Below are positions 1,579 to 21,085 of a DNA stretch of 64,000 nt, one piece after another (position 1 is the first letter of the stretch; each line of letters begins with the position of its first letter). Made by a program: the position numbers and the translations under genes. Source of the stretch: a virus; IMG/VR virus record IMGVR_UViG_3300018414_000007, positions 17,107 to 81,106 of that record; one strand, 5' to 3'. The notes under the pieces were generated by a model. That model ran no database searches and was not told the DNA's origin. It worked only from the letters and a program-made list of their open reading frames with translations.

Positions 1579-3783
1579 TTAATAATATTGAGGCTTTCTA
1601 TTTACAAATAATTGTCTAGTAAAAAAGTTATCAACTTCATCAACATCTAACTGAGGTTCTTCTACTTGGATCTTGTGCATTTCCAAATCTTGCATCATTA
1701 CAAGCATAAAAGCAATGACTCTATCAAAGTTACCATCTTTATTATAACCTATTAATTCTTTTAATAGAGGTATACTAGGTATCTTAGTTAATTGTAATTT
1801 CCCTGGTTCTAATTCAGTCTTTAACCAATCTCTAGTCATAATCTCTATAGCATCTTTTATTTGGTTAGTCATGTGAGTACCAAATACTCTATCTACTTTA
1901 GTATTAGGAGATATAGACTTTATAATAGCAGGTTGTCTACAAAGTAAATGTAAACTATTCTTTGTTTCAAAATAAGCTTTAATTCCTGGAGTTTGATTTT
2001 CATACAATGCTTGTGCATTATAATACTCTAGTAATCTTCTACACTGTTCATAGAAATCACTAGCAAATTCTGGTCTACCAGTGTATTCAGCTACAAGTGT
2101 ATGATAAGTTTGGTCTGCATTAACAAATCTTTTATATATCATTATAGAACCCATAGAAGAAGAGCTATCAGCTTGATCTTGGTCTATACTATCTATACCA
2201 GCTATATATGTACCATATTGAGGATTCTCAATAGGTTGTTCCCATATTACTACAGCTCCTCTAGGATCTTTAGAATACTTAGTAGGATAGTCACAAGGAG
2301 TTAAATCATGGTCTACTTTAAACATAGCTTTACCATTTTCATCTCTTTGCATCCAACCAGTAGCACCTAATTCTTTTAATCTTCTATTAGATTCTATATT
2401 AGCTAGATGTTCTTTTAGTTCAGCTGTAGGGAATATATTACCTTGTTGTACTAAAAATGCTTCAGATGGAACTACTGGTCTATTCTGTAACTCATCATAT
2501 AGAGGTTGTTTACTTCTACCATTAGCTAGTTTAACTCTTTCATTCTCTAAGAACTTTCTAGCTTGAACTTCATCAGTAACTCCTTCATCATTCTTAAACT
2601 GATTAAGAGTTTTCCAAGCAGGTACAAAATAACCTATCTTACCTTTGTTTTCATACTCATCTTCAAATACTAAACAATCATAAGGTTCAGGATGGTAGAA
2701 CACTTCTTTAACAGCTTCAGTACTACCTCCAGCCATATCACCACCTGTACCAAACATCCATATAGTACCAAACTTTTCTGAACCATTCATAGTACATTCT
2801 TTTAATTGACCTAGAGCTAATAAGAGATTACCCATAAAACCAATCTCTTCTAAAGCTACAAATCCTGGTCTTGTTCCATTGGCAGCCATAGGATTGTCTG
2901 CAAATGACCTATGATGAATCATAGACTTCGACCCTTTCTTTACCCAGTTATTACCTATCTTTTGATCATACTCAGCTACAACAGTTTTACCAGATTCCCA
3001 AGAGCCTGAGAATTTCTTTAAGAAAGGAGCAGGATAATATCTATCACCTAACTCCATTCCACCAGTAAGATTCTCTAGTCCTAGTCTAACTTTCTTAAGT
3101 AAACCAGAACTATATTTAGTATCAATAGCTCCTACTAGAGTTTCACTCTTAGCTTCTTTTAAATCACTATAAGAGAATACTCCATCATGTAAGAAGTTCC
3201 AAGCTATAAGATTAGCTGCAAAGAAAGATTTACCACCACCTCTAGCTTCTATATCAACAACATTCTTAGCATTGTTATACATAAGAGGTCTACCAAGATC
3301 TTCTTTATGATTCCATCTTAAGTAGTCTCTAGCTTCAACATAATTAACTGGAACATATCTTTTAGGTAAACTACGAGCTTCTCCTAATCTAATATCATCC
3401 CAAGGTTCTATCTGAATTTGTTTACATTCAAACTCATCATAGAATAACATTGTATCTTTTAATGACCTATCACAAGTATTGTAATGGTCATATTCAAAAC
3501 CAGAGAAACCTCTAGCTTCCATAAAAAGATATCCTTTCTCCCATTCTAAATCTCTGAGGAAAGGATGATCTATTACCTTATTTTTACTATTCTTAGTTTT
3601 ATTTAATTCTATCTTCCAATGGTTAATGTATTGATATACAGGTCCAGGCATATACTTACCACCAGACCAATAACCTTCAATACATCTCCTTCTCTCCTCT
3701 TTCCAGAAAGTTCTATAGTCTAAACTGAGAGGATTTAACTTCTCAATCTTTTGTTTGAAATTAGAATTAGATACATAACTCAT
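1579..3783 (-). CDS. terL: Terminase large subunit (TerL)
   Basis: The 734-residue protein is the packaging motor: an N-terminal ATPase that translocates DNA into the procapsid through the portal and a C-terminal RNase H-like nuclease that cuts concatemers. Visible motifs are a Walker A-like RGGGKS at about 181-186, a hydrophobic Walker B strand with two acidic residues (FVALEE, 308-313), and a nuclease strand beginning AGIDSIDQD with Asp531. The length is normal for phage TerL. The upstream gene's stop overlaps the start (TAATG). No separate small terminase is recognised nearby, which is common in crAss-like phages. Confidence 0.95.
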   Translation of the reverse strand: MSYVSNSNFKQKIEKLNPLSLDYRTFWKEERRRCIEGYWSGGKYMPGPVYQYINHWKIELNKTKNSKNKVIDHPFLRDLEWEKGYLFMEARGFSGFEYDHYNTCDRSLKDTMLFYDEFECKQIQIEPWDDIRLGEARSLPKRYVPVNYVEARDYLRWNHKEDLGRPLMYNNAKNVVDIEARGGGKSFFAANLIAWNFLHDGVFSYSDLKEAKSETLVGAIDTKYSSGLLKKVRLGLENLTGGMELGDRYYPAPFLKKFSGSWESGKTVVAEYDQKIGNNWVKKGSKSMIHHRSFADNPMAANGTRPGFVALEEIGFMGNLLLALGQLKECTMNGSEKFGTIWMFGTGGDMAGGSTEAVKEVFYHPEPYDCLVFEDEYENKGKIGYFVPAWKTLNQFKNDEGVTDEVQARKFLENERVKLANGRSKQPLYDELQNRPVVPSEAFLVQQGNIFPTAELKEHLANIESNRRLKELGATGWMQRDENGKAMFKVDHDLTPCDYPTKYSKDPRGAVVIWEQPIENPQYGTYIAGIDSIDQDQADSSSSMGSIMIYKRFVNADQTYHTLVAEYTGRPEFASDFYEQCRRLLEYYNAQALYENQTPGIKAYFETKNSLHLLCRQPAIIKSISPNTKVDRVFGTHMTNQIKDAIEIMTRDWLKTELEPGKLQLTKIPSIPLLKELIGYNKDGNFDRVIAFMLVMMQDLEMHKIQVEEPQLDVDEVDNFFTRQLFVNRKPQYY

Positions 3784-3984: not shown

Positions 3985-4515
3985 TTATATATCTTCACTA
4001 TCTGCAAGTGACAACTCATGTCCACCTTTAGTTGCACCTACATTCTTTTCTTTACTTAATTCTTCTTGTATAATTTTAAATGTCTTAAATATCTTTTCAG
4101 TACCTACAGACATTTTATCTATCTTATCAAAGTTATCTAAATCATATTCAGTATCTCTGAGGAACTTAGTTCTTTTATCTAGAGTTTCTAACCACTGTCT
4201 TAAGTGTCTTTTAGCTGGAGTATCTACAAGTTTCATAATCATTTCTATAGCAGGATTAATCATCTTAAGATTCTTATTATAGAAATCTTTATCTTTAAGA
4301 TAATCTTTACCTACTATAGAAACTCTTTCTTCTAGTTCTAAATTATAGAATCTAGAATCTAAATCAAAGCAAGCTACTATAAACCACATAACATCAGATG
4401 ACTTAGTTTTAAACTCTTTCTGTATAGTCTTAAACTCTTCAATCTTTTTAAACTCTGGATACATTTCCCAGAAGTTATACTCAGGATCTATAATATTAAA
4501 TACTTTGTCTGTCAT
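3985..4515 (-). CDS. Conserved hypothetical protein of the packaging operon
   Basis: The 176-residue protein is rich in aromatic and charged residues and looks mostly helical, with a serine/glycine-rich tail. It has no signal peptide or membrane segment, and I recognise no named domain. Lying between an IHF-like gene and TerL, it resembles the unnamed conserved genes next to terminase in crAss-like phages. A structural or small-terminase-like role is possible but cannot be shown here. Its start overlaps the end of the upstream gene by 20 nt, as expected for translational coupling. Confidence 0.75.
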   Translation of the reverse strand: MTDKVFNIIDPEYNFWEMYPEFKKIEEFKTIQKEFKTKSSDVMWFIVACFDLDSRFYNLELEERVSIVGKDYLKDKDFYNKNLKMINPAIEMIMKLVDTPAKRHLRQWLETLDKRTKFLRDTEYDLDNFDKIDKMSVGTEKIFKTFKIIQEELSKEKNVGATKGGHELSLADSEDI

Positions 4516-8999: not shown

Positions 9000-9031
9000 C
9001 AAATATAAGAATTCTTTTTTACAATTGCAAA
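9000..9031 (-). promoter_or_regulatory. Bacteroides-type promoter, leftward, divergent region
   Basis: Minus strand: TTTG (9031-9028), 20 bp spacer, TATATTTG (9007-9000), an exact match to TTTG-N19-21-TAnnTTTG. Predicted +1 near 8996. It faces the 8494-8871 gene. Confidence 0.65.
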
Positions 9032-9032
9032 T

Positions 9033-9066
9033 TAATCAATTAAATAATTACTCAAACATTAAACAC
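9033..9066 (+). repeat. Recurrent leader motif, copy A
   Basis: Begins ATTAATCAA and continues through ATTACTCAAAC to AAACACATG. Similar leaders precede the genes at 11314 and 12521, and a partial copy follows the tRNA at 14911. It may be a phage early promoter element or a translation-enhancing A/T leader; the sequence alone cannot tell. Confidence 0.45.
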
Positions 9067-9384
9067 ATGAACAAGATTAAATCTTTATTTGTTTTCAACA
9101 AGGTTGATAACAATGGTAATGCAAGGACAGTTGCTTGCATCAATGGTGATACATTCATCAATGCTAAATGGTTAGCAAGTCAAACTGAATTAACTATTGC
9201 TTCATTACCACTATTGGTAGGTAGTAGCATAGAAGTTGAATACTTTGTTGAAGGTGAAGTATTGCAAGCTGCAGAAGGTGATATAGCTGAAAAGCTTTGC
9301 ACCAAGAATAATACTATAGTTAAAAGCTTTAGTGTTGAGTACAGCATTGCACTTACAGTTGCTAAAATGTATAAAGCTGCATAA
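9067..9384 (+). CDS. Hypothetical protein, first rightward gene
   Basis: A 105-residue protein starting MNKIKSLFVFNKVDNNGNAR. A TTG-started form would extend it 14 residues into the leader motif, so the ATG at 9067 is preferred. The fold looks beta-rich and small (VEYFVEGEVLQAAEGD, ending TVAKMYKAA). No domain recognised. As the first rightward gene it is probably expressed early. Its stop overlaps the next start. Confidence 0.75.
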   Translation: MNKIKSLFVFNKVDNNGNARTVACINGDTFINAKWLASQTELTIASLPLLVGSSIEVEYFVEGEVLQAAEGDIAEKLCTKNNTIVKSFSVEYSIALTVAKMYKAA

Positions 9385-9497
9385 TGATGCAATTAACATT
9401 AGGAATAAGTGTCATAGTGATGCTTATTCCTATTATACTTGCAATCAAGGATGAGAGAAAAGACAAACAGTCTAAATGGTATAAAGAGAATAGATGA
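9384..9497 (+). CDS. Tiny single-pass membrane protein
   Basis: A 37-residue ORF whose ATG overlaps the preceding TAA. It has one hydrophobic helix (LTLGISVIVMLIPIILAI) and then a charged tail DERKDKQSKWYKENR. Similar one-helix miniproteins recur through this region. Function unknown. Confidence 0.6.
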   Translation: MMQLTLGISVIVMLIPIILAIKDERKDKQSKWYKENR

Positions 9498-9502
9498 TTA
9501 AA

Positions 9503-9610
9503 TAAACTAAAGGTAAGCATAAAGGTTAAAGTTAGCTCTGCACTAAAGTAGCTAATTAGGTATCTAACTGCTGGTATTCTCGATGAATACTATTGCTTAT
9601 CTTTAGTTTA
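9503..9610 (+). ncRNA. Structured intergenic RNA element 1 (17-bp closing stem)
   Basis: Bases 9503-9519 pair with 9594-9610 over 17 bp with one G-U wobble. Inside are a hairpin GTATTC/GAATAC (9574-9590, loop TCGAT) and a weaker GTTAGCT/AGCTAAT pairing. There is no T-run, so it is not a simple terminator, and no tRNA arms. The 213-bp gap 9498-9710 contains no ORF of note. Confidence 0.6.
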
Positions 9611-9710
9611 ATATCTTATGTAAAAGAGTGTTAATTGAGTACTCTCTATCTCTCAGCACTATTTCTCACTAATCAACTTATCAGTTAACTTACACTAATT
9701 CATTATTATT

Positions 9711-10004
9711 ATGGCTAATCAAGAGTTTAATCCTTCTGAAAATAGTATAATATTACTATCAGTTTTAAAGTATATTACAGGTGAAGTTGTTCAAATAAAT
9801 AGAACAAATAGAACAATTTACCTTAGTAATAACACTCATTGGAATGCTCATACATTTCATCAAAACGTTCAATTATTAAGAATGTTTATGAATAGAGAAA
9901 TATCTATTGACCCAACTATACAATTAATGCAAAATGCAGTAAAGTCAACAATAGATGCTATGAAAAAGCAATGTCCAATGAAAGTTATATCTTTAATAAA
10001 ATAA
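9711..10004 (+). CDS. Hypothetical protein
   Basis: A 97-residue protein, MANQEFNPSENSIILLSVLK onward, polar with two amphipathic helices and a C-terminal Lys/Met-rich helix. No domain recognised. Its 3' end overlaps the next gene by 34 nt in another frame. Confidence 0.65.
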   Translation: MANQEFNPSENSIILLSVLKYITGEVVQINRTNRTIYLSNNTHWNAHTFHQNVQLLRMFMNREISIDPTIQLMQNAVKSTIDAMKKQCPMKVISLIK

Positions 10005-10159
10005 ATATATTACTTCCTAATGGTAAATACAAAGGACAATCTGTTTCTTATGTATATTCAATTCATCCAAGCTATATTAAATGGTATTTTGACCATGTTA
10101 AAGAGCTTAATGAATTCATTGAATTGCAAAGAAAATACGACAGTAAACAAGGTGATTAA
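9971..10159 (+). CDS. Small protein with exonuclease X C-terminal / DUF3820-like motif
   Basis: The 62-residue protein carries LPNGKYKGQSVSYVYSIHPS followed by YIKWYFDH. This resembles the short module found at the C-terminus of some DnaQ-type exonucleases and in DUF3820 proteins (pattern fGKYKG...dpsYlxWl). That module is thought to help nucleic acid or protein binding. The exonuclease domain itself is absent, so this is the stand-alone module only. Confidence 0.55.
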   Translation: MSNESYIFNKINILLPNGKYKGQSVSYVYSIHPSYIKWYFDHVKELNEFIELQRKYDSKQGD

Positions 10160-10168
10160 TTTCGCCTT
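10149..10168 (+). other. Intergenic hairpin
   Basis: AAGGTGA (10149-10155) pairs with TCGCCTT (10162-10168), with one G-U pair, straddling the stop codon of the preceding gene. There is no proper T-run, so it is either a weak terminator or an RNA-processing/stability hairpin. Confidence 0.4.
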
Positions 10169-10208
10169 TAACTAATCATTTTATTAACCTATTTTAATTA
10201 TCAGCATT

Positions 10209-10400
10209 ATGTACCTTTTATTACTCCTAATAATACTATCAGTAATACTCTTTTACTTAGTATTTAAGACAAACAAGATTAAAAAGTCTTATCAATATAA
10301 TAATTATAAGATTGATAAGGCTAAGAATACACCTGTTTATACAAAGACTAAAGACCTTTGTAGAAGAGGAATGCATCATTCATTTAAGTTTAAATACTAA
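10209..10400 (+). CDS. Small membrane protein with basic tail
   Basis: The 63-residue protein starts with a Leu/Ile-rich helix (MYLLLLLIILSVILFYLVF) and continues as a strongly basic cytoplasmic-type tail (KTNKIKKSYQYNNYK...). It could be a membrane anchor or signal-anchor protein. No domain recognised. Confidence 0.65.
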   Translation: MYLLLLLIILSVILFYLVFKTNKIKKSYQYNNYKIDKAKNTPVYTKTKDLCRRGMHHSFKFKY

Positions 10401-10404
10401 ACTT

Positions 10405-10596
10405 ATGGCAAGACAAGAATTACATAAATGTTCTATATGTGGTAAAACATATGATATTCAAAAACATGAGTTTTGTCCTAAGTGTGGAGAAAATGAAAAA
10501 GAATGGAAAAAAACACATTCAATGCTTAGTAATTTGAGTAATAACTTCATTGATGAAATGGAGTCTTTTCATGGATTTCAAGAAGTATTTGATTAA
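10405..10596 (+). CDS. Small zinc-ribbon protein
   Basis: The 63-residue protein has two Cys pairs, CSICGKTYDIQKHEFCPKCG, the layout of a zinc ribbon, followed by a polar helix. Longer in-frame starts overlap the preceding gene, so the ATG at 10405 is chosen. It probably binds DNA, RNA or protein. Confidence 0.65.
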   Translation: MARQELHKCSICGKTYDIQKHEFCPKCGENEKEWKKTHSMLSNLSNNFIDEMESFHGFQEVFD

Positions 10597-10632
10597 AATA
10601 CTACAAAGAACTTTATAAATTACATTCAGATT

Positions 10633-10666
10633 TTTCAATTACTACTGGTAGTAAGTATAATTGAAA
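10633..10666 (+). other. Structured intergenic RNA element 2
   Basis: TTTCAATTA (10633-10641) pairs with TAATTGAAA (10658-10666), 9 bp, around an inner CTA/TAG hairpin. First of three stem-loops in the 286-bp gap 10597-10882, which has no convincing ORF. Confidence 0.5.
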
Positions 10667-10688
10667 TTAGAGAGAGTAGTTTATATTG

Positions 10689-10752
10689 AATAGGATTCTA
10701 AAGTTGATTATACAGTCTTAAGTAGACTTAGACTACAAACTTCTTGCCTATT
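10689..10752 (+). other. Structured intergenic RNA element 3
   Basis: AATAGG (10689-10694) pairs with CCTATT (10747-10752). Inside, AAGTT (10701-10705) pairs with AACTT (10738-10742) and AGTCT (10714-10718) with AGACT (10724-10728), giving one interrupted long stem. Confidence 0.45.
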
Positions 10753-10770
10753 ATTTAAATGCATAACACG

Positions 10771-10852
10771 ATAAAGAGGAATAATAAACTATCTAGTTAA
10801 TAACCAATTGCAACAGGTGAAAACTAAAAGGATGTGATAGCAGCCTCTTTAT
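10771..10852 (+). ncRNA. Structured intergenic RNA element 4
   Basis: ATAAAGAGG (10771-10779) pairs with CCTCTTTAT (10844-10852), 9 bp. Inner stems are CTATC (10789-10793) with GATAG (10836-10840) and TAGTT (10794-10798) with AACTA (10822-10826). Three nested helices make chance unlikely. AGTTTAT at 10676-10682 could alternatively pair with ATAAACT at 10784-10790, linking it to the preceding elements. Confidence 0.55.
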
Positions 10853-10882
10853 TAAATTAAATTGAAATCAAATTAAATAACT

Positions 10883-11020
10883 ATGATACCTACAGTAATA
10901 CTTTTAATTATTCTATTTGCATTGTTAATCAATATCTGTACAAATACAGATTGGAAACAAGAGAATGAAGATTTAATAACTATTTGGAAATGGTTATTTA
11001 AATCAAAAATATTGAAATAG
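10883..11020 (+). CDS. Tiny membrane protein
   Basis: A 45-residue ORF: a hydrophobic helix (MIPTVILLIILFALLINI), an acidic stretch NTDWKQENEDL, then an aromatic, basic end. It follows the A/T leader style of this region. Its TAG lies inside the next RNA stem. Confidence 0.6.
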   Translation: MIPTVILLIILFALLINICTNTDWKQENEDLITIWKWLFKSKILK

Positions 11021-11071
11021 TATAGATAACAATGCTTCTCAATTAGGCACGGTTAATTGAGTATACTATTT
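11015..11071 (+). ncRNA. Structured intergenic RNA element 5
   Basis: AAATAGTATA (11015-11024) pairs with TATACTATTT (11062-11071), and CTCAATTA (11038-11045) pairs with TAATTGAG (11054-11061) around loop GGCACGGT. The two helices stack on the 3' side with a 13-nt bulge on the 5' side. The upstream gene's stop codon is inside the lower stem. Confidence 0.55.
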
Positions 11072-11096
11072 TAAAGAACTTCATTTAACTCTTCAA

Positions 11097-11161
11097 ACTT
11101 GTACAAAGGAGTTATCTTATAGAAGCAGAGATTAGTTGCAAATAATCTTTGCAGTACAAGT
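11097..11161 (+). ncRNA. Structured intergenic RNA element 6
   Basis: ACTTGTAC (11097-11104) pairs with GTACAAGT (11154-11161). Inside, GCAGAGATTA (11125-11134) pairs with TAATCTTTGC (11143-11152) around GTTGCAAA. A competing helix TAACTC (11086-11091)/GAGTTA (11109-11114) would break the outer stem, so the element could switch. Confidence 0.55.
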
Positions 11162-11206
11162 GTGGTGCACATCATCAAAACGAGAAAGAAAAGATCATTT
11201 AAAAAA

Positions 11207-11247
11207 GACTATTATGTAGAAAACGGCATGAAGAGCCCTTAATAGTC
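11207..11247 (+). other. Structured intergenic RNA element 7
   Basis: GACTATTA (11207-11214) pairs with TAATAGTC (11240-11247), 8 bp, with an inner GGC/GCC pairing. The 293-bp gap 11021-11313 holds elements 5-7 and leader motif copy B, but no convincing ORF. Confidence 0.5.
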
Positions 11248-11279
11248 GAAAACTTAGCTTGTGTGCAGAGCTATTTTAT

Positions 11280-11313
11280 TAATTAATCAAACAAATTACT
11301 CAAACTTAAAACT
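11280..11313 (+). repeat. Recurrent leader motif, copy B
   Basis: Starts near 11280 with AATTAATCAA, continues ATTACTCAAAC and ends AAAACTATG. Closest relative of copies A (9033) and C (12486). Confidence 0.45.
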
Positions 11314-11451
11314 ATGCAAATAGAAATCTTTAACCATATTAGTCTAGGACAGGTATGGAATGTGAAACAGCGTGGAACTAAAATGTATTGTAGAACTGTT
11401 TCAGATAATATACAATACAAAATTAATCTAATTGATTTAATTGATTACTAA
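11314..11451 (+). CDS. Small hypothetical protein
   Basis: A 45-residue ORF, MQIEIFNHISLGQVWNVKQR onward, beta-rich and soluble. It has the recurrent leader immediately upstream and the next gene begins one base after its stop, which supports translation. No domain recognised. Confidence 0.55.
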   Translation: MQIEIFNHISLGQVWNVKQRGTKMYCRTVSDNIQYKINLIDLIDY

Positions 11452-11452
11452 T

Positions 11453-11671
11453 ATGTGGTATTTTGTTTTAATATGTATAGTAATATTTCAAGGATATATT
11501 ATTTATAAACAATACAGAATAATTCAGTTAGATAATAAATTACATGAATTAGCGGATCAATGTGCTGAATTAGCAGAATTATTCAGACCAAAAGATAACT
11601 CATTACCAATAAAATCAACAGGATATTATAAAACTGATGAAAATGGTAAATTAATATTTGTTGAACATTAA
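11453..11671 (+). CDS. Small membrane protein
   Basis: A 72-residue protein: N-terminal membrane helix (MWYFVLICIVIFQGYIIY), then a helical acidic segment and a polar tail. A TTG-start form four residues longer overlaps the preceding gene, so the ATG at 11453 is used. No domain recognised. Confidence 0.65.
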   Translation: MWYFVLICIVIFQGYIIYKQYRIIQLDNKLHELADQCAELAELFRPKDNSLPIKSTGYYKTDENGKLIFVEH

Positions 11672-11676
11672 AATAT

Positions 11677-11755
11677 TAAGGGTAATAGCATCGTTCTTTT
11701 CCATTTTGCGTTTTTGTGAACTTTTATTTAACATCTAAAAAGTCTATTACCCTTA
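11677..11755 (+). ncRNA. Structured intergenic RNA element 8 (12-bp closing stem)
   Basis: TAAGGGTAATAG (11677-11688) pairs perfectly with CTATTACCCTTA (11744-11755). The long internal loop has only a weak GTTC/GAAC helix. No T-run follows, so it is not a standard terminator. Confidence 0.6.
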
Positions 11756-11771
11756 TTTAAAACTTAAAATT

Positions 11772-11957
11772 ATGGTATCAATAACAGTATTAACAATAGG
11801 ATTTTTATTCTTTCTATCCTATATATATTTAATGACAACTCCTACACCAAGAAAACATTGTGATAGATGTGGTAGAGAGTTAAAAGAAAGACATTATGGA
11901 AATATCTATTATTGGATATGTCCTATTCATGGTATAAAAGAAACTAAAGTTAAATAA
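11772..11957 (+). CDS. Membrane-anchored mini zinc-ribbon protein
   Basis: A 61-residue protein: membrane helix (MVSITVLTIGFLFFLSYIYL), then CDRCGRELKER and a second metal-ligand-like pair CPIHG. It looks like a zinc knuckle tethered to the inner membrane. The next gene follows after one base. Function unknown. Confidence 0.65.
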   Translation: MVSITVLTIGFLFFLSYIYLMTTPTPRKHCDRCGRELKERHYGNIYYWICPIHGIKETKVK

Positions 11958-11958
11958 T

Positions 11959-12150
11959 ATGAAATGGTTTAAAGCAATAACAACAATTTTAATACTTATA
12001 TGTATTATGGTTGGAATCAATTGGTTTGTTATATCCATTAATAGTATTAAGCGAGGTATCAATAAACCAAGAATTGATACAGTATTAACTATAAGAACTA
12101 TTAGACATTATAGAGATACTGATACAGTAATATTAAAACATTTAAATTAA
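11959..12150 (+). CDS. Small membrane protein
   Basis: A 63-residue protein with one N-terminal membrane helix (AITTILILICIMVGINWFVI) and a basic tail with repeated Arg/Thr (RIDTVLTIRTIRHYRDTDTV). No domain recognised. Confidence 0.65.
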   Translation: MKWFKAITTILILICIMVGINWFVISINSIKRGINKPRIDTVLTIRTIRHYRDTDTVILKHLN

Positions 12151-12155
12151 ATTTA

Positions 12156-12359
12156 ATGGCATCAAAACAAGAACAATTAGAATTAGACTTTCTAAAAGTG
12201 AAAGTTAGAATTGTAAGAGATATTACTGATTGTTCTACATTTGAACAATTAGATGAATATATTCATAATGTAAACAAAATATTTGATATAACCTCATTCT
12301 TAGACAAAAATAAAGCGAGTCATAAAGAGATTGGTAATGTTGAAATATTAGAAGAATAG
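12156..12359 (+). CDS. Small soluble hypothetical protein
   Basis: A 67-residue helical protein, MASKQEQLELDFLKVKVRIV onward, acidic at the C-terminus. No domain recognised. It ends the four-gene run 11453-12359. Confidence 0.65.
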   Translation: MASKQEQLELDFLKVKVRIVRDITDCSTFEQLDEYIHNVNKIFDITSFLDKNKASHKEIGNVEILEE

Positions 12360-12375
12360 TAAAGATCCAGGGAAA

Positions 12376-12480
12376 TACTGTATGGAAACAGTATAATAGT
12401 AGGTGAAGGTTTCACCTTAAATGAAGTTATCTTGAAGAGACTAACGACTCTTTAAAGAGAATTAATCAGCCTACTATTAT
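12376..12480 (+). ncRNA. Structured intergenic RNA element 9
   Basis: ATAATAGTAGG (12393-12403) pairs perfectly with CCTACTATTAT (12470-12480). Inside are AAGGT/ACCTT (12406-12418) and AAGAG/CTCTT (12435-12452). A separate hairpin TACTGT/ACAGTA (12376-12393) precedes it. The closing stem resembles that of element 10. Confidence 0.6.
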
Positions 12481-12485
12481 TATTT

Positions 12486-12520
12486 TAATTAATCAAATTT
12501 ACTACTCTAAACAATAAACT
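12486..12520 (+). repeat. Recurrent leader motif, copy C
   Basis: Starts AATTAATCAA, continues CTACTCTAAAC and ends AAACTATG, aligned with copies A and B. It lies directly between RNA element 9 and the next ATG. Confidence 0.45.
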
Positions 12521-12718
12521 ATGACAGATGAAATAGTACAATCAAATGTAAGAGCATATAATGTAGTCCAACAAGGATATAGTGATGATGCTTTAAAGGT
12601 AAGAGAGTCATTAGGTAAAGACTTTACTGATATTCTATTTAGGAAGTTGTGTACTTTATCTAAATTAGAAAGAATTGAAGTAATAACTAGTCTTTCTAAA
12701 GTTATTAACAAAATTTAA
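12521..12718 (+). CDS. Small soluble hypothetical protein
   Basis: A 65-residue helical protein (MTDEIVQSNVRAYNVVQQGY onward). No membrane segment or domain recognised. It has the recurrent leader upstream. Confidence 0.65.
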   Translation: MTDEIVQSNVRAYNVVQQGYSDDALKVRESLGKDFTDILFRKLCTLSKLERIEVITSLSKVINKI

Positions 12719-12728
12719 CCAATTTATT

Positions 12729-12902
12729 ATGAAATATAAATATTTTATATATAATATAAATGGTACTTTATTATATGAATCAATGTGCTCATATAAAGAA
12801 CCATTAGCATTAAAATTAGCTGAAAAGCATTGTTTAATATCACAATTAAATGGTAATAAAGGTGCATATAGCAAATTAATGCCAGAAGGAATTGCAGTTT
12901 AG
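12729..12902 (+). CDS. Small hypothetical protein
   Basis: A 57-residue ORF, MKYKYFIYNINGTLLYESMC onward. The pattern YFIYNINGTLLYE looks like a beta hairpin followed by a helix. It lies ten bases after the preceding gene. No domain recognised. Confidence 0.55.
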   Translation: MKYKYFIYNINGTLLYESMCSYKEPLALKLAEKHCLISQLNGNKGAYSKLMPEGIAV

Positions 12903-13049
12903 TTAGGAGTAATTACTGTAATTTGATTAGTTTTTAATATAGTGGGAGACAGTGGTGCAAAGCCATTCTTGCCAAGGTTGAAACCCAGTCTTGGTTAGTA
13001 GTATAACAGTTATTACGCCTACTATATTATTTTATTTAGCTTACCTAAC
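12902..13049 (+). ncRNA. Structured intergenic RNA element 10
   Basis: TAATATAGTGGG (12935-12946) pairs with CCTACTATATTA (13018-13029), 12 bp with one G-U. Inner hairpins are TGG/CCA and CCAAG/CTTGG. An outer stem GTTAGG (12902-12907) with CCTAAC (13044-13049) encloses it. This is the most complex of the elements and is a good candidate for a discrete RNA. Confidence 0.6.
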
Positions 13050-13059
13050 AATAATTATT

Positions 13060-13137
13060 ATGAAACCAGAAAATTTTGCGATAGTGAATGGTGTAATAGT
13101 TTCAGATGAAGATGCAATCATTTGGGATTTTCAATAA
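13060..13137 (+). CDS. Possible 25-residue peptide
   Basis: ATG at 13060 after an A/T leader encodes MKPENFAIVNGVIVSDEDAI plus five residues. The codon choice and leader look like its neighbours, but the length makes it uncertain. It would sit between two RNA elements. Confidence 0.35.
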   Translation: MKPENFAIVNGVIVSDEDAIIWDFQ

Positions 13138-13139
13138 AT

Positions 13140-13372
13140 AGGATATAAGTATATATCCTGCATTTGTAAGCGTATTGGATGTATAAAATATCCCCTAAGA
13201 TGATGGAACATAAACAGAACTATACGTATTCCCCAAGAATATAGTCCTTCTGTTAGGCAAACATGAGCATTTAGATTTAATGCTTGGGAACTATAGGAAA
13301 ATCTCGACGATATAACTATCCCTTGAAGGTTCGTACCCTTCTCTTAGGACTATTCTATATGATAGGATATAG
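13140..13372 (+). ncRNA. Structured intergenic RNA element 11 (several domains)
   Basis: Fills the 286-bp gap 13138-13423. Hairpin AGGATATA/TATATCCT (13140-13159) comes first. A larger domain is closed by TAGTCCT (13242-13248) with AGGACTA (13346-13352), enclosing AGCATT/AATGCT, GGGA/TCCC and GAAGG/CCTTC hairpins. A last hairpin CTATAT/ATATAG spans 13355-13372. The GAAGG hairpin has a TTCG-starting loop, but the rest does not fit a tRNA. Confidence 0.55.
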
Positions 13373-13423
13373 AGTATGAAGTTAACACAAATTATCTACA
13401 AACAAATTTAAATTTAAAACAAA

Positions 13424-13954
13424 ATGAATAAAAGATTTTTAACAGGCTTTGCTATGATGCATTTAGCCGCTGATGCTGCTTCTCAAGGTGGAAATAGCAA
13501 TGAATTAACTAAAGAACAAGTTAAACAAATCATTGAATCTCGTAAAATTGTTACAGAACCTGGTCAATATCAGGCTAAAGTAACTAATGTTACTCTTTAT
13601 ACAAGAGAAGATGATACATTAGTACAAATCAATAACTTTGATTTGATGACTCCTTGGAATCTATCTGAAGCAAAGCGTTTGTATAAAGAAGGAGAGTATA
13701 CTGAAGCTGCAAGCCAAAAGCTCTCTAACAATTCAAGAGTAGGTACTGATTTCTGCCCTAAGAAAGGAGATATTGTAAATGTTGTATTAGATATAATTGC
13801 TACTAAGAATCAACCAAATGGTGTTCTTTTGATTAAAGCAATTATGCCTCTTGAAACAAAGAAAGCATCTGCTGTATCTTTTGGTTTTGATGATGAAACT
13901 GAAGAAGTTAATTTAGCAACTGAAAAAGCAGTTGAAGAACCAGCATTAACTTAA
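13424..13954 (+). CDS. Conserved hypothetical protein, possibly nucleic-acid binding
   Basis: The 176-residue protein has a helical N-terminus, a beta-rich middle (GQYQAKVTNVTLYTREDDTL ...DIVNVVLDIIATKN) and a long acidic tail (FDDETEEVNLATEKAVEEP). An OB-like core with an acidic tail is the layout of phage single-stranded DNA-binding proteins, but no diagnostic motif is visible, and a better SSB candidate exists at 37849. It is the largest gene of this stretch and is followed by a strong hairpin. Confidence 0.7.
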   Translation: MNKRFLTGFAMMHLAADAASQGGNSNELTKEQVKQIIESRKIVTEPGQYQAKVTNVTLYTREDDTLVQINNFDLMTPWNLSEAKRLYKEGEYTEAASQKLSNNSRVGTDFCPKKGDIVNVVLDIIATKNQPNGVLLIKAIMPLETKKASAVSFGFDDETEEVNLATEKAVEEPALT

Positions 13955-13966
13955 TTGTAAACCTAA

Positions 13967-13994
13967 TAGTAGTAGAGCCTATCCTCTACTACTA
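13967..13994 (+). other. Perfect 11-bp intergenic hairpin
   Basis: TAGTAGTAGAG (13967-13977) pairs with CTCTACTACTA (13984-13994), loop CCTATC. The following bases are ATTTAAATT rather than a T-run, so it is more likely a processing or mRNA-stabilising hairpin than a terminator. Confidence 0.55.
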
Positions 13995-14009
13995 ATTTAA
14001 ATTAAAACT

Positions 14010-14192
14010 ATGAAATCAAAAGCATTTGGAATAACATTTTTAATATTGTTATTCTTGTTACATCTCATACCACTTATTATATATATTATATCAAGAAATA
14101 TCAATACTCTTAGTATGTATGCTGGTCTTTTAGTACTTGATATAATTATAATAACAATTTGCGATATGAATGGTTTATTTACTGATTATTAA
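14010..14192 (+). CDS. Small two-helix membrane protein
   Basis: A 60-residue protein with two hydrophobic segments (FLILLFLLHLIPLIIYIISR and MYAGLLVLDIIIITICD). No domain recognised. Possibly a small inner-membrane protein acting on the host envelope. Confidence 0.65.
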   Translation: MKSKAFGITFLILLFLLHLIPLIIYIISRNINTLSMYAGLLVLDIIIITICDMNGLFTDY

Positions 14193-14203
14193 CCTTAATT
14201 AAT

Positions 14204-14680
14204 ATGAAATTAAAACAAAAATCTTGGTATGCTTGGTATTATCAGAACTTTTATGGTGAAGATTTACCAGTATCTTTATGTGTATTCTTTTGGAAAGAAT
14301 TACTAGCAATAATACTATTTCCTATTACATGGCTTAATGTTATATTTAATTACAAAAAACAAGACTACGATAGACTTCCTATTGGATTAACTATTGCATT
14401 ACATTGTGTAGGAATAGGAGTTGGGTTATTAATTACAATTCCATTACATCTTAAAAATCCAATACATTTACTTTGGGTAGGTATTCCCGGTTTAATTTTA
14501 TTAGCAATATTAATTGGTATCGTAGTAGGAGTAGGTTTTGTATTATATCAATTAGTTGGATTTATATCTAGATTATTTTATAAATATAAACCTGCTTATA
14601 AAGAACCTAAACCCAGTTGGTTTAAAGAAGGTATAAAAGCATTCTTTGGTAAATATTGTCCTAAAATAGATTGGTTATGA
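14204..14680 (+). CDS. Integral membrane protein, 3-4 helices
   Basis: The 158-residue protein has hydrophobic segments near residues 26-48, 62-85 and 87-127 with a Gly/Val-rich stretch, and a basic Pro-rich tail (YKEPKPSWFKEG). No enzyme motif seen. It ends with a stop overlapping the next start. Confidence 0.7.
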   Translation: MKLKQKSWYAWYYQNFYGEDLPVSLCVFFWKELLAIILFPITWLNVIFNYKKQDYDRLPIGLTIALHCVGIGVGLLITIPLHLKNPIHLLWVGIPGLILLAILIGIVVGVGFVLYQLVGFISRLFYKYKPAYKEPKPSWFKEGIKAFFGKYCPKIDWL

Positions 14681-14837: not shown

Positions 14838-14909
14838 GGTCCTGTAGTTCAACGGATAGAACGGGAGATTTCTAATCTCTAGATAATGGTTCGATTCCAT
14901 TCAGGACTA
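14838..14909 (+). tRNA. tRNA-Arg (anticodon TCT)
   Basis: A full cloverleaf: acceptor GGTCCTG/CAGGACT with a G-U first pair, D loop with TTCAACGGATAGAAC, anticodon stem GGAGA/TCTCT with loop TTTCTAA reading AGA codons, and T arm AATGG-TTCGATT-CCATT. CCA is not encoded. AGA is the main Arg codon in these AT-rich genes, so the tRNA likely supports phage translation. Confidence 0.95.
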
Positions 14910-14930
14910 CAATTAATCAAATTAAATAAT

Positions 14931-15164: not shown

Positions 15165-15997
15165 AAAAGTATAAATTAATTAAAGAATATCCGGGTTCAC
15201 CTAAACTGGGAACTATAGTAGAACATGAAACTAAATGTGTATGTCCTAATTATAAAGTTAGTATAAATCAAGAAACTTGGATATTTGCAGAATCTAGTAT
15301 ACAGAATTTCCCTGAATTTTGGAAAGAGATAATAGGAAAAGAATATGAAATATTATCTTTTAAAATTAATGAGGATATATATAGTCATGTAATTATACTA
15401 AATAAAACTCGAAAAGGATTTATGAATACATTAAACGGTTTATATTTATATGAAGAACAACTATTAACCAATAATGACTATAAAATATATTCAGTAAAAC
15501 GTTTATCAGATGGAGAAGTGTTTACTATTGGTGATGGTATTAAATCTACTGAATGGTCTAAAAAAGATGATCAAGATATAATTACAAATATATGCATTTG
15601 TACTGAAGATCATAGTAAAGTATTTGGAAATTTAAAACCAAATAAAATAATTTTACAAACAGAAATAACTTGGCAATGTAATTTAGAATCTGCAATTAAA
15701 GTTAAAAAACCATTATTTACTACAGAAGATGGAGTAGATATATTTGAAGGTGACACATTTAGTATAGTTTATTCTGATTTTTCTACTCATTACAATGTAA
15801 CCTTTAAAAATCTTATTAAACCATTTTGTAAGGTATTTTCAACAAAAGAAAAAGCAGAAGAATATATTTTATTAAATAAACCTGTTTTAACTTATAATGA
15901 TATCATTAATATTACTCAATTTATAACAGCAGTAGAAAGAGCGTGTGTATTAATTCAAACTGAAAAATTACTAAAACAAAAACTTAATATTAAATAA
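15161..15997 (+). CDS. Phage modular protein with YKLIKEYPGSP-type repeats
   Basis: The 278-residue protein starts MKKYKLIKEYPGSPKLGTIV and later has FPEFWKEI, then IYSVKRLSDGEVFTIGDG, FEGDTF and a second acidic/aromatic module. From memory, such short domains recur in proteins of Bacteroides phages, including crAss-like phages, often beside tail or accessory genes. They are small beta-rich modules of unknown function, probably for binding. An earlier in-frame start at 15143 would overlap the preceding gene; the ATG at 15161 makes an ATGA overlap. Confidence 0.65.
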   Translation: MKKYKLIKEYPGSPKLGTIVEHETKCVCPNYKVSINQETWIFAESSIQNFPEFWKEIIGKEYEILSFKINEDIYSHVIILNKTRKGFMNTLNGLYLYEEQLLTNNDYKIYSVKRLSDGEVFTIGDGIKSTEWSKKDDQDIITNICICTEDHSKVFGNLKPNKIILQTEITWQCNLESAIKVKKPLFTTEDGVDIFEGDTFSIVYSDFSTHYNVTFKNLIKPFCKVFSTKEKAEEYILLNKPVLTYNDIINITQFITAVERACVLIQTEKLLKQKLNIK

Positions 15998-15998
15998 C

Positions 15999-16376
15999 AT
16001 GAATGCAACAATAACAACTGGAATAATTTTATTAGCTACATTAATAGCTATTAATTTAACTTGTATAATAATCAATCATTTTGTAATTAAAGCGGAAATA
16101 AATGATATATTAGACAAGGATTTAAGAATAGATTTACTTCAATCTCTTCAACCTATTTATAAAATATTCTTTAAAAGGGTAATAATCTCAGCAAATACAG
16201 ATTATTTTAGTTGTAAAGAAGATTATATAAGATATTCAAGTTATTTAAATATTGAAGGATTGCAAGAAGATTTAAATAATTTTTATCATAAATCCAGAAG
16301 AAAAGAACATACAGATTATGAGTTATTTAATGAATTTAAAGAAAAGAAAGTTTTAGAAGTAGAAGAAATGTTTTGA
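15999..16376 (+). CDS. Membrane-anchored hypothetical protein
   Basis: The 125-residue protein has one N-terminal helix (GIILLATLIAINLTCIIINH) and a soluble, charged helical C-terminal domain ending KEKKVLEVEEMF. No domain recognised. The -33 box of the next promoter overlaps its stop codon. Confidence 0.65.
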   Translation: MNATITTGIILLATLIAINLTCIIINHFVIKAEINDILDKDLRIDLLQSLQPIYKIFFKRVIISANTDYFSCKEDYIRYSSYLNIEGLQEDLNNFYHKSRRKEHTDYELFNEFKEKKVLEVEEMF

Positions 16377-16403
16377 TTTTTCAATTATTTTATCGTATTT
16401 TTG
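16372..16403 (+). promoter_or_regulatory. Bacteroides-type promoter before holin-like pair
   Basis: TTTG (16372-16375), 20 bp spacer, TATTTTTG (16396-16403). Predicted +1 near 16407, 17 nt upstream of the ATG at 16424. Exact consensus match. Confidence 0.65.
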
Positions 16404-16423
16404 TATAATATTCCAATTATTTA

Positions 16424-16852
16424 ATGTATGAAATTAAAGACTTTACTAATCTCTTTACCTCTACTAAGCTATCTGAACTATTAATATTAGCAATTCTAGT
16501 ATTTTTAGGTGTTGCTGCAAGAATTAGTATAGATATTGAGATTAGTAAAAAGTCTTTTAAACAGATTAAATTTTTTCCTAGATATTTCTTAGCATTAGTA
16601 TTATCTTATGTTATTGAATTATATTTAGTGGAACATGAAGATGCAAGAAAATATTACGCAGAAATTATAATATTATTTTGTATCTTTGTAAATGATCTTA
16701 TTAAGTTTGTACTTAATAACACTGGTAGAATATTTATTTATATTTTAAGTGCCTTTACTAAAGGTGTATTTGATTTAAAGAAGTTTCTTGCTAAATCTGA
16801 GAATAATGGAAACAAACCAATAAATAAAGAATTTGATAATAAAGAAGAATAA
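16424..16852 (+). CDS. Holin-like membrane protein
   Basis: The 142-residue protein has three or four membrane helices (SELLILAILVFLGVAARI, then YFLALVLSYVIELYL, then IIILFCIFVNDLIKFVL) and a polar tail (NNGNKPINKEFDNKEE). Size and topology fit phage holins, which open the inner membrane so that endolysin can escape. It has its own host-type promoter and is followed directly by a second membrane protein. It is far from the lysozyme gene, so the holin call is tentative. Confidence 0.5.
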   Translation: MYEIKDFTNLFTSTKLSELLILAILVFLGVAARISIDIEISKKSFKQIKFFPRYFLALVLSYVIELYLVEHEDARKYYAEIIILFCIFVNDLIKFVLNNTGRIFIYILSAFTKGVFDLKKFLAKSENNGNKPINKEFDNKEE

Positions 16853-19198: not shown

Positions 19199-21085
19199 AT
19201 AGAAAGTAAAATAAATTTTGTAGGTCCAGAGGATTTATACAAAGAGGAAGGTAATCAACTATATGATCTAAAATCTATAGAAGATTGCCTTTCTTGGTTA
19301 AAGACATTATCATCAGTATCTTTAGATACAGAAACAGAAGGATTTTTTAATTTTAAGAATAAAATTATAATGCTTCAGTTATCTGACGGTAAAGAAGTTT
19401 GGGTGATAGATGTAAGAGGAAAAGAATACTATAATAAGTTAAAACCTGTATTAGAAAGTATTTTAGTATTAGGTCAAAATTTAAAGTTTGATTACAAATT
19501 CTTAAAATTTGAAGGAATAGAACTAAATAATATATATGATACATTCTTAGCTGAATGTGCTTTAACTAACGGTCTTACTGAAAGGCAATTAGGATTAGGA
19601 GCTATTGCTAAGAAGTATTTAGATGTTAATTTAGATAAATCTGTTAGAAATCAATTTATAGGATTAGAAGGTAAACCCTTTACATTCAAACAAATTATAT
19701 ATGGTGCAGAAGATGTACTGTATTTACATAAAATAAGAGAATTACAATTACAGAAAGCAGCAGAGTTAGATCTAGTAGATTATATACTATTAGAATGTCA
19801 AGCTTGTCTTGCAATCAGTGATATTGAATATAATGGTCTTGGATTTAATCCTCAAGCTTGGTTAGATTTAGCTAAAAAGGTAAATAGTAATATACCTCAG
19901 CTAGAATTAGAATTAGATCAGTTTATATTATCTGAACCAAAGAAGTATTATAAGTTTATTAACCAAACTCCTCAATTAGATATATTTGGAGGTGAAAGTA
20001 GAAGAGTATTAGTTGAATGGAGTAGTCCTACACAAATGCTTAAGCTACTTAAAGTAGTCTTAAATGATCCAAATTTAGAAAAGACTGAGGAAAAAGAAAT
20101 TGCTAAATATCAATTTGATTATCCATTTATTAGTAAATTCATAGATTATAAGAAAGAAGCTAAACTTGCTTCTACTTATGGTGAAGATTTTATTAAGTAT
20201 GTTAATCCTGTTACAGGTAGAATCCATAGTGATTTTTGGCAGATTCTAGTTACTAGTAGAGTTAGTTCTAATAATCCTAATTTACAAAACCTTCCAGCTA
20301 AAAATGATTATTTAAATTGTTTTGTAGCAGATAAAGGTAAGAAAATAATAGGTATAGATTACAAAGGACAAGAAGCAAGAATAGCTGCTTGTTTTAGTAA
20401 AGAAGCTACTTGGTTAGATGCTATTAAAGATGATAAAGACTTACATGGTGAAGTTGCTAAGCTTATGTTTAATATTACAGATGCTGAAGTAAGAAATAAA
20501 CCAGATTTTCTTAGAGGTAAATCTTATAGAGATATAGCTAAGAATATTAACTTTATGGCTTTATTTGGTGGTACTAAATGGAAGTTAAGTAAAATGCTTT
20601 TGTGTAGCTTAGATGAAGCTCAGGATCTATTAGACAGATACTTTTCTGCAACTAAGAACTTACAAGTATATTTAAATAAATGTGCTTCTTATGGCCTTAA
20701 AAGAGGTTATATAAGAAGTGGTAAACCATATAGTGCTATTAGATGGTTTGAGAATTGGAAAGAAAATTTAGATATTTATAAAGACTCTAAAATTATTGGA
20801 GAAATTACAAGAAACTGTTTTAATAGTCCAATTCAATCTACTGCAGCTATTACTACTAAATTAGCATTAATTAAACTAAGAGATTATATAAAAGATAATT
20901 CTTTGTCTAACAAAGTAAAGATTATTCATGTAGTTCATGATGCAATATATACTGAAGTAGATGATGATATTTGTAATGAATTTGCAGAAATTCAATCAAA
21001 TATAATGAAAAAGGCTGGTAAAGTATTCATACAAGATTTAATTATGGATACAGATATAACCATAGATATATATTGGAAAAAATAA
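19199..21085 (+). CDS. DNA polymerase, family A, with 3'-5' exonuclease domain
   Basis: The 628-residue enzyme replicates the phage genome. The exonuclease motif SLDTETEG (Asp43, Glu45) lies upstream of the only plausible in-frame ATG (19370), so translation must start earlier. No ATG, GTG or TTG is in frame before the TAG at 19193. ATA at 19199, six bases after AAGGAGG, is the best start. Polymerase motifs: A, IGIDYKGQEARIAA (Asp387); B, RDIAKNINFMALFGG; C, VVHDAIYTEVDDD (Asp581). In motif C the usual VHDE is VHDA. The non-AUG start with a hidden SD suggests tight translational control. Confidence 0.93.
   Translation: MESKINFVGPEDLYKEEGNQLYDLKSIEDCLSWLKTLSSVSLDTETEGFFNFKNKIIMLQLSDGKEVWVIDVRGKEYYNKLKPVLESILVLGQNLKFDYKFLKFEGIELNNIYDTFLAECALTNGLTERQLGLGAIAKKYLDVNLDKSVRNQFIGLEGKPFTFKQIIYGAEDVLYLHKIRELQLQKAAELDLVDYILLECQACLAISDIEYNGLGFNPQAWLDLAKKVNSNIPQLELELDQFILSEPKKYYKFINQTPQLDIFGGESRRVLVEWSSPTQMLKLLKVVLNDPNLEKTEEKEIAKYQFDYPFISKFIDYKKEAKLASTYGEDFIKYVNPVTGRIHSDFWQILVTSRVSSNNPNLQNLPAKNDYLNCFVADKGKKIIGIDYKGQEARIAACFSKEATWLDAIKDDKDLHGEVAKLMFNITDAEVRNKPDFLRGKSYRDIAKNINFMALFGGTKWKLSKMLLCSLDEAQDLLDRYFSATKNLQVYLNKCASYGLKRGYIRSGKPYSAIRWFENWKENLDIYKDSKIIGEITRNCFNSPIQSTAAITTKLALIKLRDYIKDNSLSNKVKIIHVVHDAIYTEVDDDICNEFAEIQSNIMKKAGKVFIQDLIMDTDITIDIYWKK

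Follow-up and report, generated by a model that had tools for sequence, protein, structure and literature searches.

What are the structured elements that occupy the gaps between the small early genes of a crAss-like phage? The window considered here is a 64,000-nt stretch of DNA, positions 17107-81106 of the 81,106-base IMG/VR virus record IMGVR_UViG_3300018414_000007, which is itself a fragment. Judged by its gene content, the window belongs to a crAss-like phage, and it carries a rightward early operon of small open reading frames (ORFs) in which stem-closed elements punctuate the intergenic gaps. The explanation favored here, at a probability of roughly one half, is that these gaps are small structured RNA modules that would be cut out of a long early transcript at their closing stems and at transfer RNA (tRNA)-like units.

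Structured Elements of the Early Operon

The gaps of the operon hold structure beyond chance, with a strand preference and a concentration of noncoding DNA. Gaps of at least 60 nt make up 34% of 8.9-14.0 kb vs. 7-8% of the remainder, and the structured elements sit in the first 5 kb of the operon. Across nine gaps, five helices reach a pairing score of at least 23 where dinucleotide shuffles predict 0.5 (maximum of 40 shuffles, 3), and three reach at least 26 where 0.05 are expected. Closing helices spanning at least 40 nt occur three times in 8.9-14.0 kb (0.05 expected), once in 14.0-46.9 kb (0.2 expected) and not at all in 0-8.9 kb (0.1 expected). The operon and its elements are given below, with z-scores of folding derived from 200 dinucleotide shuffles per element.

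9025-14680, plus strand: early operon of small ORFs carrying the elements, delimited from the ORF list and the noncoding share
9503-9610, plus strand: E0, two inner hairpins enclosed by a 17-bp closing stem, in the gap from ORF 9384-9497 to ORF 9711-10004
10771-10852, plus strand: E2, a 9-bp closing stem (z -2.5), upstream of ORF 10883-11020
11012-11074, plus strand: stem and hairpin with a 13-bp closing stem (helix score 25.5), overlapping the stop of ORF 10883-11020
11097-11161, plus strand: weaker element with an 8-bp closing stem, ACTTGTAC/GTACAAGT, and an inner hairpin, from the minimum-energy structure
11207-11247, plus strand: weaker element with an 8-bp closing stem, GACTATTA/TAATAGTC, from the minimum-energy structure only
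11677-11755, plus strand: E3, a perfect 12-bp closing stem, TAAGGGTAATAG/CTATTACCCTTA (z -3.1; helix score 28)
12376-12393, plus strand: small 6-bp hairpin directly 5' of E4 (z -3.5)
12393-12480, plus strand: E4, two inner arms enclosed by a 12-bp closing stem (z -3.75; 0/200 shuffles as stable)
12935-13029, plus strand: E5, a 12-bp stem closing a four-way junction, cloverleaf-like without a T-loop (z -4.3; 0/200 shuffles as stable)
13141-13193, plus strand: hairpin GGATAT..ATATCC abutting the acceptor-like stem (z -3.1 for 13138-13200)
13194-13352, plus strand: tRNA-like layout found by pattern match, 72 nt upstream of ORF 13424-13954
13351-13376, plus strand: 10-bp hairpin between the tRNA-like layout and ORF 13424-13954 (z -2.8)
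13967-13994, plus strand: E6, an 11-bp hairpin, TAGTAGTAGAG..CTCTACTACTA (z -5.5), terminator-like on both strands

E0 has a folding energy of -36.2 kcal/mol, and none of its 200 shuffles is as stable (z -6.0). Ten elements summed give -243 kcal/mol on the plus strand vs. -207 kcal/mol on the minus strand, a difference that arises mostly from E0 (8 kcal/mol more stable on the plus strand), E5 (-31.2 vs. -16.7 kcal/mol) and 11097-11161 (7.6 kcal/mol more stable on the plus strand). The better folding of the plus strand fits RNA transcribed in the same sense as the early genes.

Five of these stems had been named in an earlier note on this DNA, and they are present where it placed them, with closing helices of 17, 9, 12, 12, and 12 bp (E0, E2, E3, E4, and E5; z -6.0, -2.5, -3.1, -3.8, and -4.3). 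Its count of at least eleven elements proved too high: about seven stand out, and four tested stretches lie near their shuffles. That nearly every gene junction carries an element holds for gaps above about 60 nt and fails for tightly packed junctions and for the 49-nt gap 10160-10208, which has none. The AGTAGG/CCTACT likeness between the closing stems of E4 and E5 is real but short, and the interiors are unrelated.

Conserved RNAs in Related Phages

Comparison among related phages shows RNAs that are conserved independently of their neighbors, paired positions that covary, and tRNA-like units that abut these RNAs. The relatives were gathered via their terminase, and their gaps were scanned for structured elements. 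Several IMG/VR contigs are near-duplicates or share a sample: L051 equals L101, L103 is part of G003, L107 is part of G004, and L104 and L105 are nearly identical. The pattern scans catch exact cores only, making the family sizes below lower bounds, and covariance E-values are approximate.

Family 1, an RNA some 74 nt long whose closing stem is AATAAGTACAAC/GTTGTACTTATT, was found by its core pattern in at least 10 crAss-like contigs. It is nearly identical across changing flanks: the distance from the end of the upstream ORF is 6-7 nt in two contigs vs. about 245 nt in others, and the downstream ORF also varies between contigs. One copy has a 14-bp stem, reached through a paired insertion of 2+2 nt, and an inner U-A in place of C-G. 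In several contigs a tRNA-like unit starts a few bases past the family 1 3' end, and L099 1735-1870 holds a marine family 1 RNA with such a unit.

Family 2 has two blocks, of 27 and 20 nt, on either side of a variable hairpin and is present in at least eight contigs. Two pairs covary in the helix bounding this hairpin, with a covariation score matched by 10 of 500 shuffles. The covariance model of this family (R2) matches Cellulophaga phage phi14:2 at 1851-1956 (29.7 bits, E about 6e-4 in 1 Mb), directly downstream of a T-arm-like hairpin. Weak R2 matches in crAss001, cr11_1 and a second phi14:2 site within thyX were left uncounted.

Pattern searches that require an acceptor stem with an attached T-arm return, besides the window, many matches in the early regions of relatives. 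These minimal units comprise a 7-bp stem strand, D-loop letters resembling ATGGTA, a 5-bp T-arm with the loop TTCGATT, the second 7-bp strand and a tail of ACTA or ACCA. None has an anticodon arm, and in the scanned loci neither ARAGORN nor Rfam detects them. Both partners change at 5 of the 12 pairs of the seed alignment. Its covariation score is 0.439 vs. 0.233 for shuffles, and no shuffle out of 500 attains the observed value. The covariance model built on this alignment (R1) recovers more copies beyond the seed. Weaker R1 matches occur in the gut phages cr130_1 (E 2e-4, within an annotated transfer-messenger RNA [tmRNA] interval), cr6_1 (E 0.006), and cr10_1 (E 0.02), and the stems of all three pair using different letters; candidate matches in cr109_1, cr85_1, and cr111_1 lie near E 0.02-0.05. 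In cr10_1 the unit folds as a 12-bp hairpin that has an ACTA tail and lacks an insert, and 3 Mb of random sequence of window composition contains no compact motif of its kind. At its locus in this human-gut phage (L190, 160-240; NC_055875.1 24283-24318, minus strand), the acceptor/T-stem hairpin has the loop TTCGACT and is placed between a sigma-factor gene and the next gene.

Other structured RNAs accompany these families. GOLLD RNA lies directly upstream of a minimal tRNA-like unit in two early regions, L048 3198-3587 (minus strand) and L098 1223-1616 (plus strand). The early region of phi14:2 (L165, NC_021806.1) contains an unannotated tmRNA at 4031-4500, for which ARAGORN gives the tag GSSVQKLAMVA and Rfam a score of 46 bits at a cut-off of 47. 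Three crAss-like contigs that also have family 2 carry tmRNA genes (L011 14491-14863, L108 6363-6699, and L144 2758-3118). L011 further holds an RT-18 RNA (Rfam) at 15637-16670; the neighboring ORF of G004 resembles a reverse transcriptase, and the locus may be a diversity-generating or defense retroelement.

Resemblances within the Window

That no tRNA arms fit the elements, as had been stated, is contradicted at 13194-13348, where a 7-bp acceptor-like stem accompanies a 5-bp T-arm-like hairpin. The order at 13194-13352 is CCTAAGA, 124 nt, GAAGG-TTCGTAC-CCTTC, TCTTAGG and ACTA (13349-13352); the acceptor stem CCTAAGA/TCTTAGG thus adjoins a T-arm whose 7-nt loop begins TTC. The same acceptor stem and T-arm appear in the predicted minimum-energy fold, and with a relaxed loop the arrangement is expected by chance 0.05 times per 64-kb strand. 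The locus is best described as a resemblance to the minimal tRNA-like RNAs of the relatives and not as a proven member. A true tRNA-Arg (TCT) lies at 14838-14910, 0.8 kb downstream of the structured region.

A weaker likeness links E2 to family 2. Its interior (10793-10836) appears to contain diverged copies of the family's 5' and 3' blocks, and this is the window's best nhmmer match, a weak one with E 0.2.

A number of results weigh against the proposed reading, beginning with these two elements. The loop TTCGTAC of 13194-13352 has a T at position 58, where the model has a purine and A at 57-58 (TTCRA), and its 124-nt insert is longer than any in the relatives (about 6-68 nt). Model R1 gives the locus no score even with filters off, and membership in the tRNA-like family, suggested by layout alone, was rejected. 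E2 was likewise rejected as a member of family 2: model R2 scores it at 8.1 bits (E 0.75 in 4.8 kb), it lacks the CAC/GTG helix, and it leaves no space for the variable hairpin. The suggestion of a single RNA family does not survive these failures and the unrelated interiors. In family 1 itself the closing stem is nearly invariant in its letters, and covariation is thin.

On present comparisons the window's own elements also lack a homologue, and the covariation seen is that of the relatives' RNAs. Searches of 50,697 phage records and of the loci of relatives defined by the terminase large subunit (TerL), a collection from which records very near the window may be missing, gave no useful DNA homologue, only short or low-complexity matches, and in the closest usable relatives, G003 and G004 (terminase 70% identical), the early genes are too diverged for alignment. 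At the gathering cut-off Rfam finds only the tRNA-Arg in the window, and at E up to 10 it finds nothing credible in 9380-14010. A sliding-window scan hardly singles out 9.5-14 kb, and several stretches fold much as their shuffles do (10632-10690, z -1.3; 10690-10760, z -0.5; 9618-9680, z -0.3). The 263-nt stretch 11018-11280 also stays near shuffles when folded whole (z -1.5), and in that fold the 11012-11074 element falls within chance. Because the scan and several of the weaker elements are unremarkable, the claim depends on the closing stems as exactly delimited.

Proposed Processing and Its Alternatives

In the proposed mechanism the modules would be read on the plus strand together with the small early genes, each delimited by a closing stem of 9-17 bp. 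The long early transcript would most likely be cut at these stems by a double-strand-specific RNase of the RNase III type, and the tRNA-like units would most likely be cut by RNase P and RNase Z. RNase P gauges the stacked acceptor and T stems, and the D-loop is apparently dispensable (PMC4919913). Cleavage would free stable small phage RNAs and trimmed messenger RNAs (mRNAs). The modules would then be different RNAs sharing a closed-stem layout, gained, lost and exchanged between phages. Transcription, cleavage and RNA function in this phage are inferred, and the most likely role for the products would be that of trans-acting RNAs for host takeover, or decoys. The similarly organized early operon of phi14:2 is reportedly transcribed by an injected virion RNA polymerase (PMC8375218). 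A broader proposal, tentative and on balance doubtful, is that crAss-like phages punctuate their transcripts with anticodon-less tRNA-like RNAs that recruit host tRNA-processing enzymes to excise small phage RNAs, and that the window holds one variant of these.

Among the roles suggested previously, small RNAs and processing sites are favored because family 1 stays constant amid changing neighbors in the relatives and the tRNA-like RNAs covary. Stems acting in cis as protectors, that is, as 5' or 3' hairpins that stabilize separate early mRNAs and yield no stable small RNA, are an unlikely alternative. Most stems do sit shortly past a stop codon, with the next start codon 16-41 nt downstream, and unrelated interiors are to be expected if the stem alone matters. 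Multi-arm interiors, and interiors conserved in their letters among relatives, nevertheless exceed what a protector needs, and the flanking genes of the relatives change.

Transcription terminators or attenuators have a small probability as a general explanation. E6 fits an intrinsic terminator on both strands and could serve both directions, and the region has five terminator-like sites where 1.0 are expected. Among the elements, however, E6 alone passes as an intrinsic terminator with a short-loop GC stem leading into a T-run, and the others, which have loops of about 50-80 nt and no T-run, are unlisted by the terminator scan. Attenuation, one of the roles proposed, loses further ground in that the relatives show no fixed downstream gene.

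A role at the level of DNA, with hairpins or inverted repeats serving either as promoters for the virion RNA polymerase after its injection or as borders at which exchangeable cassettes recombine, is just as improbable. The virion polymerase of phage N4 uses hairpin promoters, and inverted repeats do flank modules exchanged between phages; against this stand G-U pairs, better folding of one strand and the lack of common promoter-like letters among the window's stems. Chance structure in AT-rich DNA, over-read in the earlier note, is the least probable account, even with several weaker elements no better than shuffles and an unremarkable sliding-window scan, given that the strong closing helices exceed shuffles ten- to sixty-fold and that the same kind of element recurs in relatives.

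Genomic Context

The terminase is encoded at 1579-3783 on the minus strand, and its named relatives include phi14:2 and many gut crAss-like phages. Leftward genes stop near 8.87 kb, and the rightward operon of small ORFs starts at 9025. A terminator-like hairpin of 15 pairs (9400-9432) lies within the small ORF 9384-9497, which may be no gene. Further downstream, ORF 19370-21085 is putatively PolA-like, and a 5005-aa ORF at 46941-61958 (minus strand) matches, by size alone, the giant virion RNA polymerases of the crAss-like group.

Protein scans with ORF 13424-13954 and the PolA-like ORF found no relatives among viral contigs, and a TerL profile had no match in bacterial genomes. The idea that the 13424-13954 protein corresponds to the early protein located next to the marine RNAs was unsupported by profile comparison, and the positional argument was abandoned.

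Comparison with Known Systems

The crAss-like phages are very abundant, and the proposed reading, if true, would make their early arm a small-RNA locus that has escaped annotation, with two new RNA families and a class of anticodon-less tRNA-like RNAs. Since phi14:2, a cultured model phage, has one of the families and a tmRNA, laboratory infections could test this directly. No account of noncoding RNAs in crAss-like phages beyond tRNAs and tmRNAs was found in the open-access papers searched.

Bacterial Y RNA (YrlA), which works with Ro60, is a small stem-closed RNA with a tRNA-like part. A Ro60/Y-RNA system is unsupported here, as no TROVE/Ro60 gene (PF05731) was found in this record or 15 related records, although the host could still supply the protein. 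In phage T7, RNase III processing sites, which are single imperfect hairpins, lie between early genes. The window resembles T7 in placing structured elements in the gaps of an early operon, between genes and on the transcribed strand, and differs in having several multi-arm RNAs with long closing stems, the cleavage of which is presumed.

Phage tRNA islands with GOLLD or ROOL (PMC12286853, PMC7567579) offer a second parallel, in that the early regions of relatives hold GOLLD, tRNAs or tRNA-like units. The window, in contrast, lacks GOLLD, and none of its elements, which are 30-160 nt long, falls within an Rfam family. In tmRNA, the tRNA-like domain consists of an acceptor stem and T-arm without an anticodon arm, and tmRNAs are carried by relatives and by phi14:2; the minimal units differ from it in the size of their inserts (about 0-70 nt) and in lacking a tag frame, and neither RF00023 nor ARAGORN finds a tmRNA in the window, including 13138-13385. 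Finally, the punctuation of mitochondrial transcripts by tRNAs has its possible viral counterpart in the tRNA-like punctuation proposed for the crAss-like phages.

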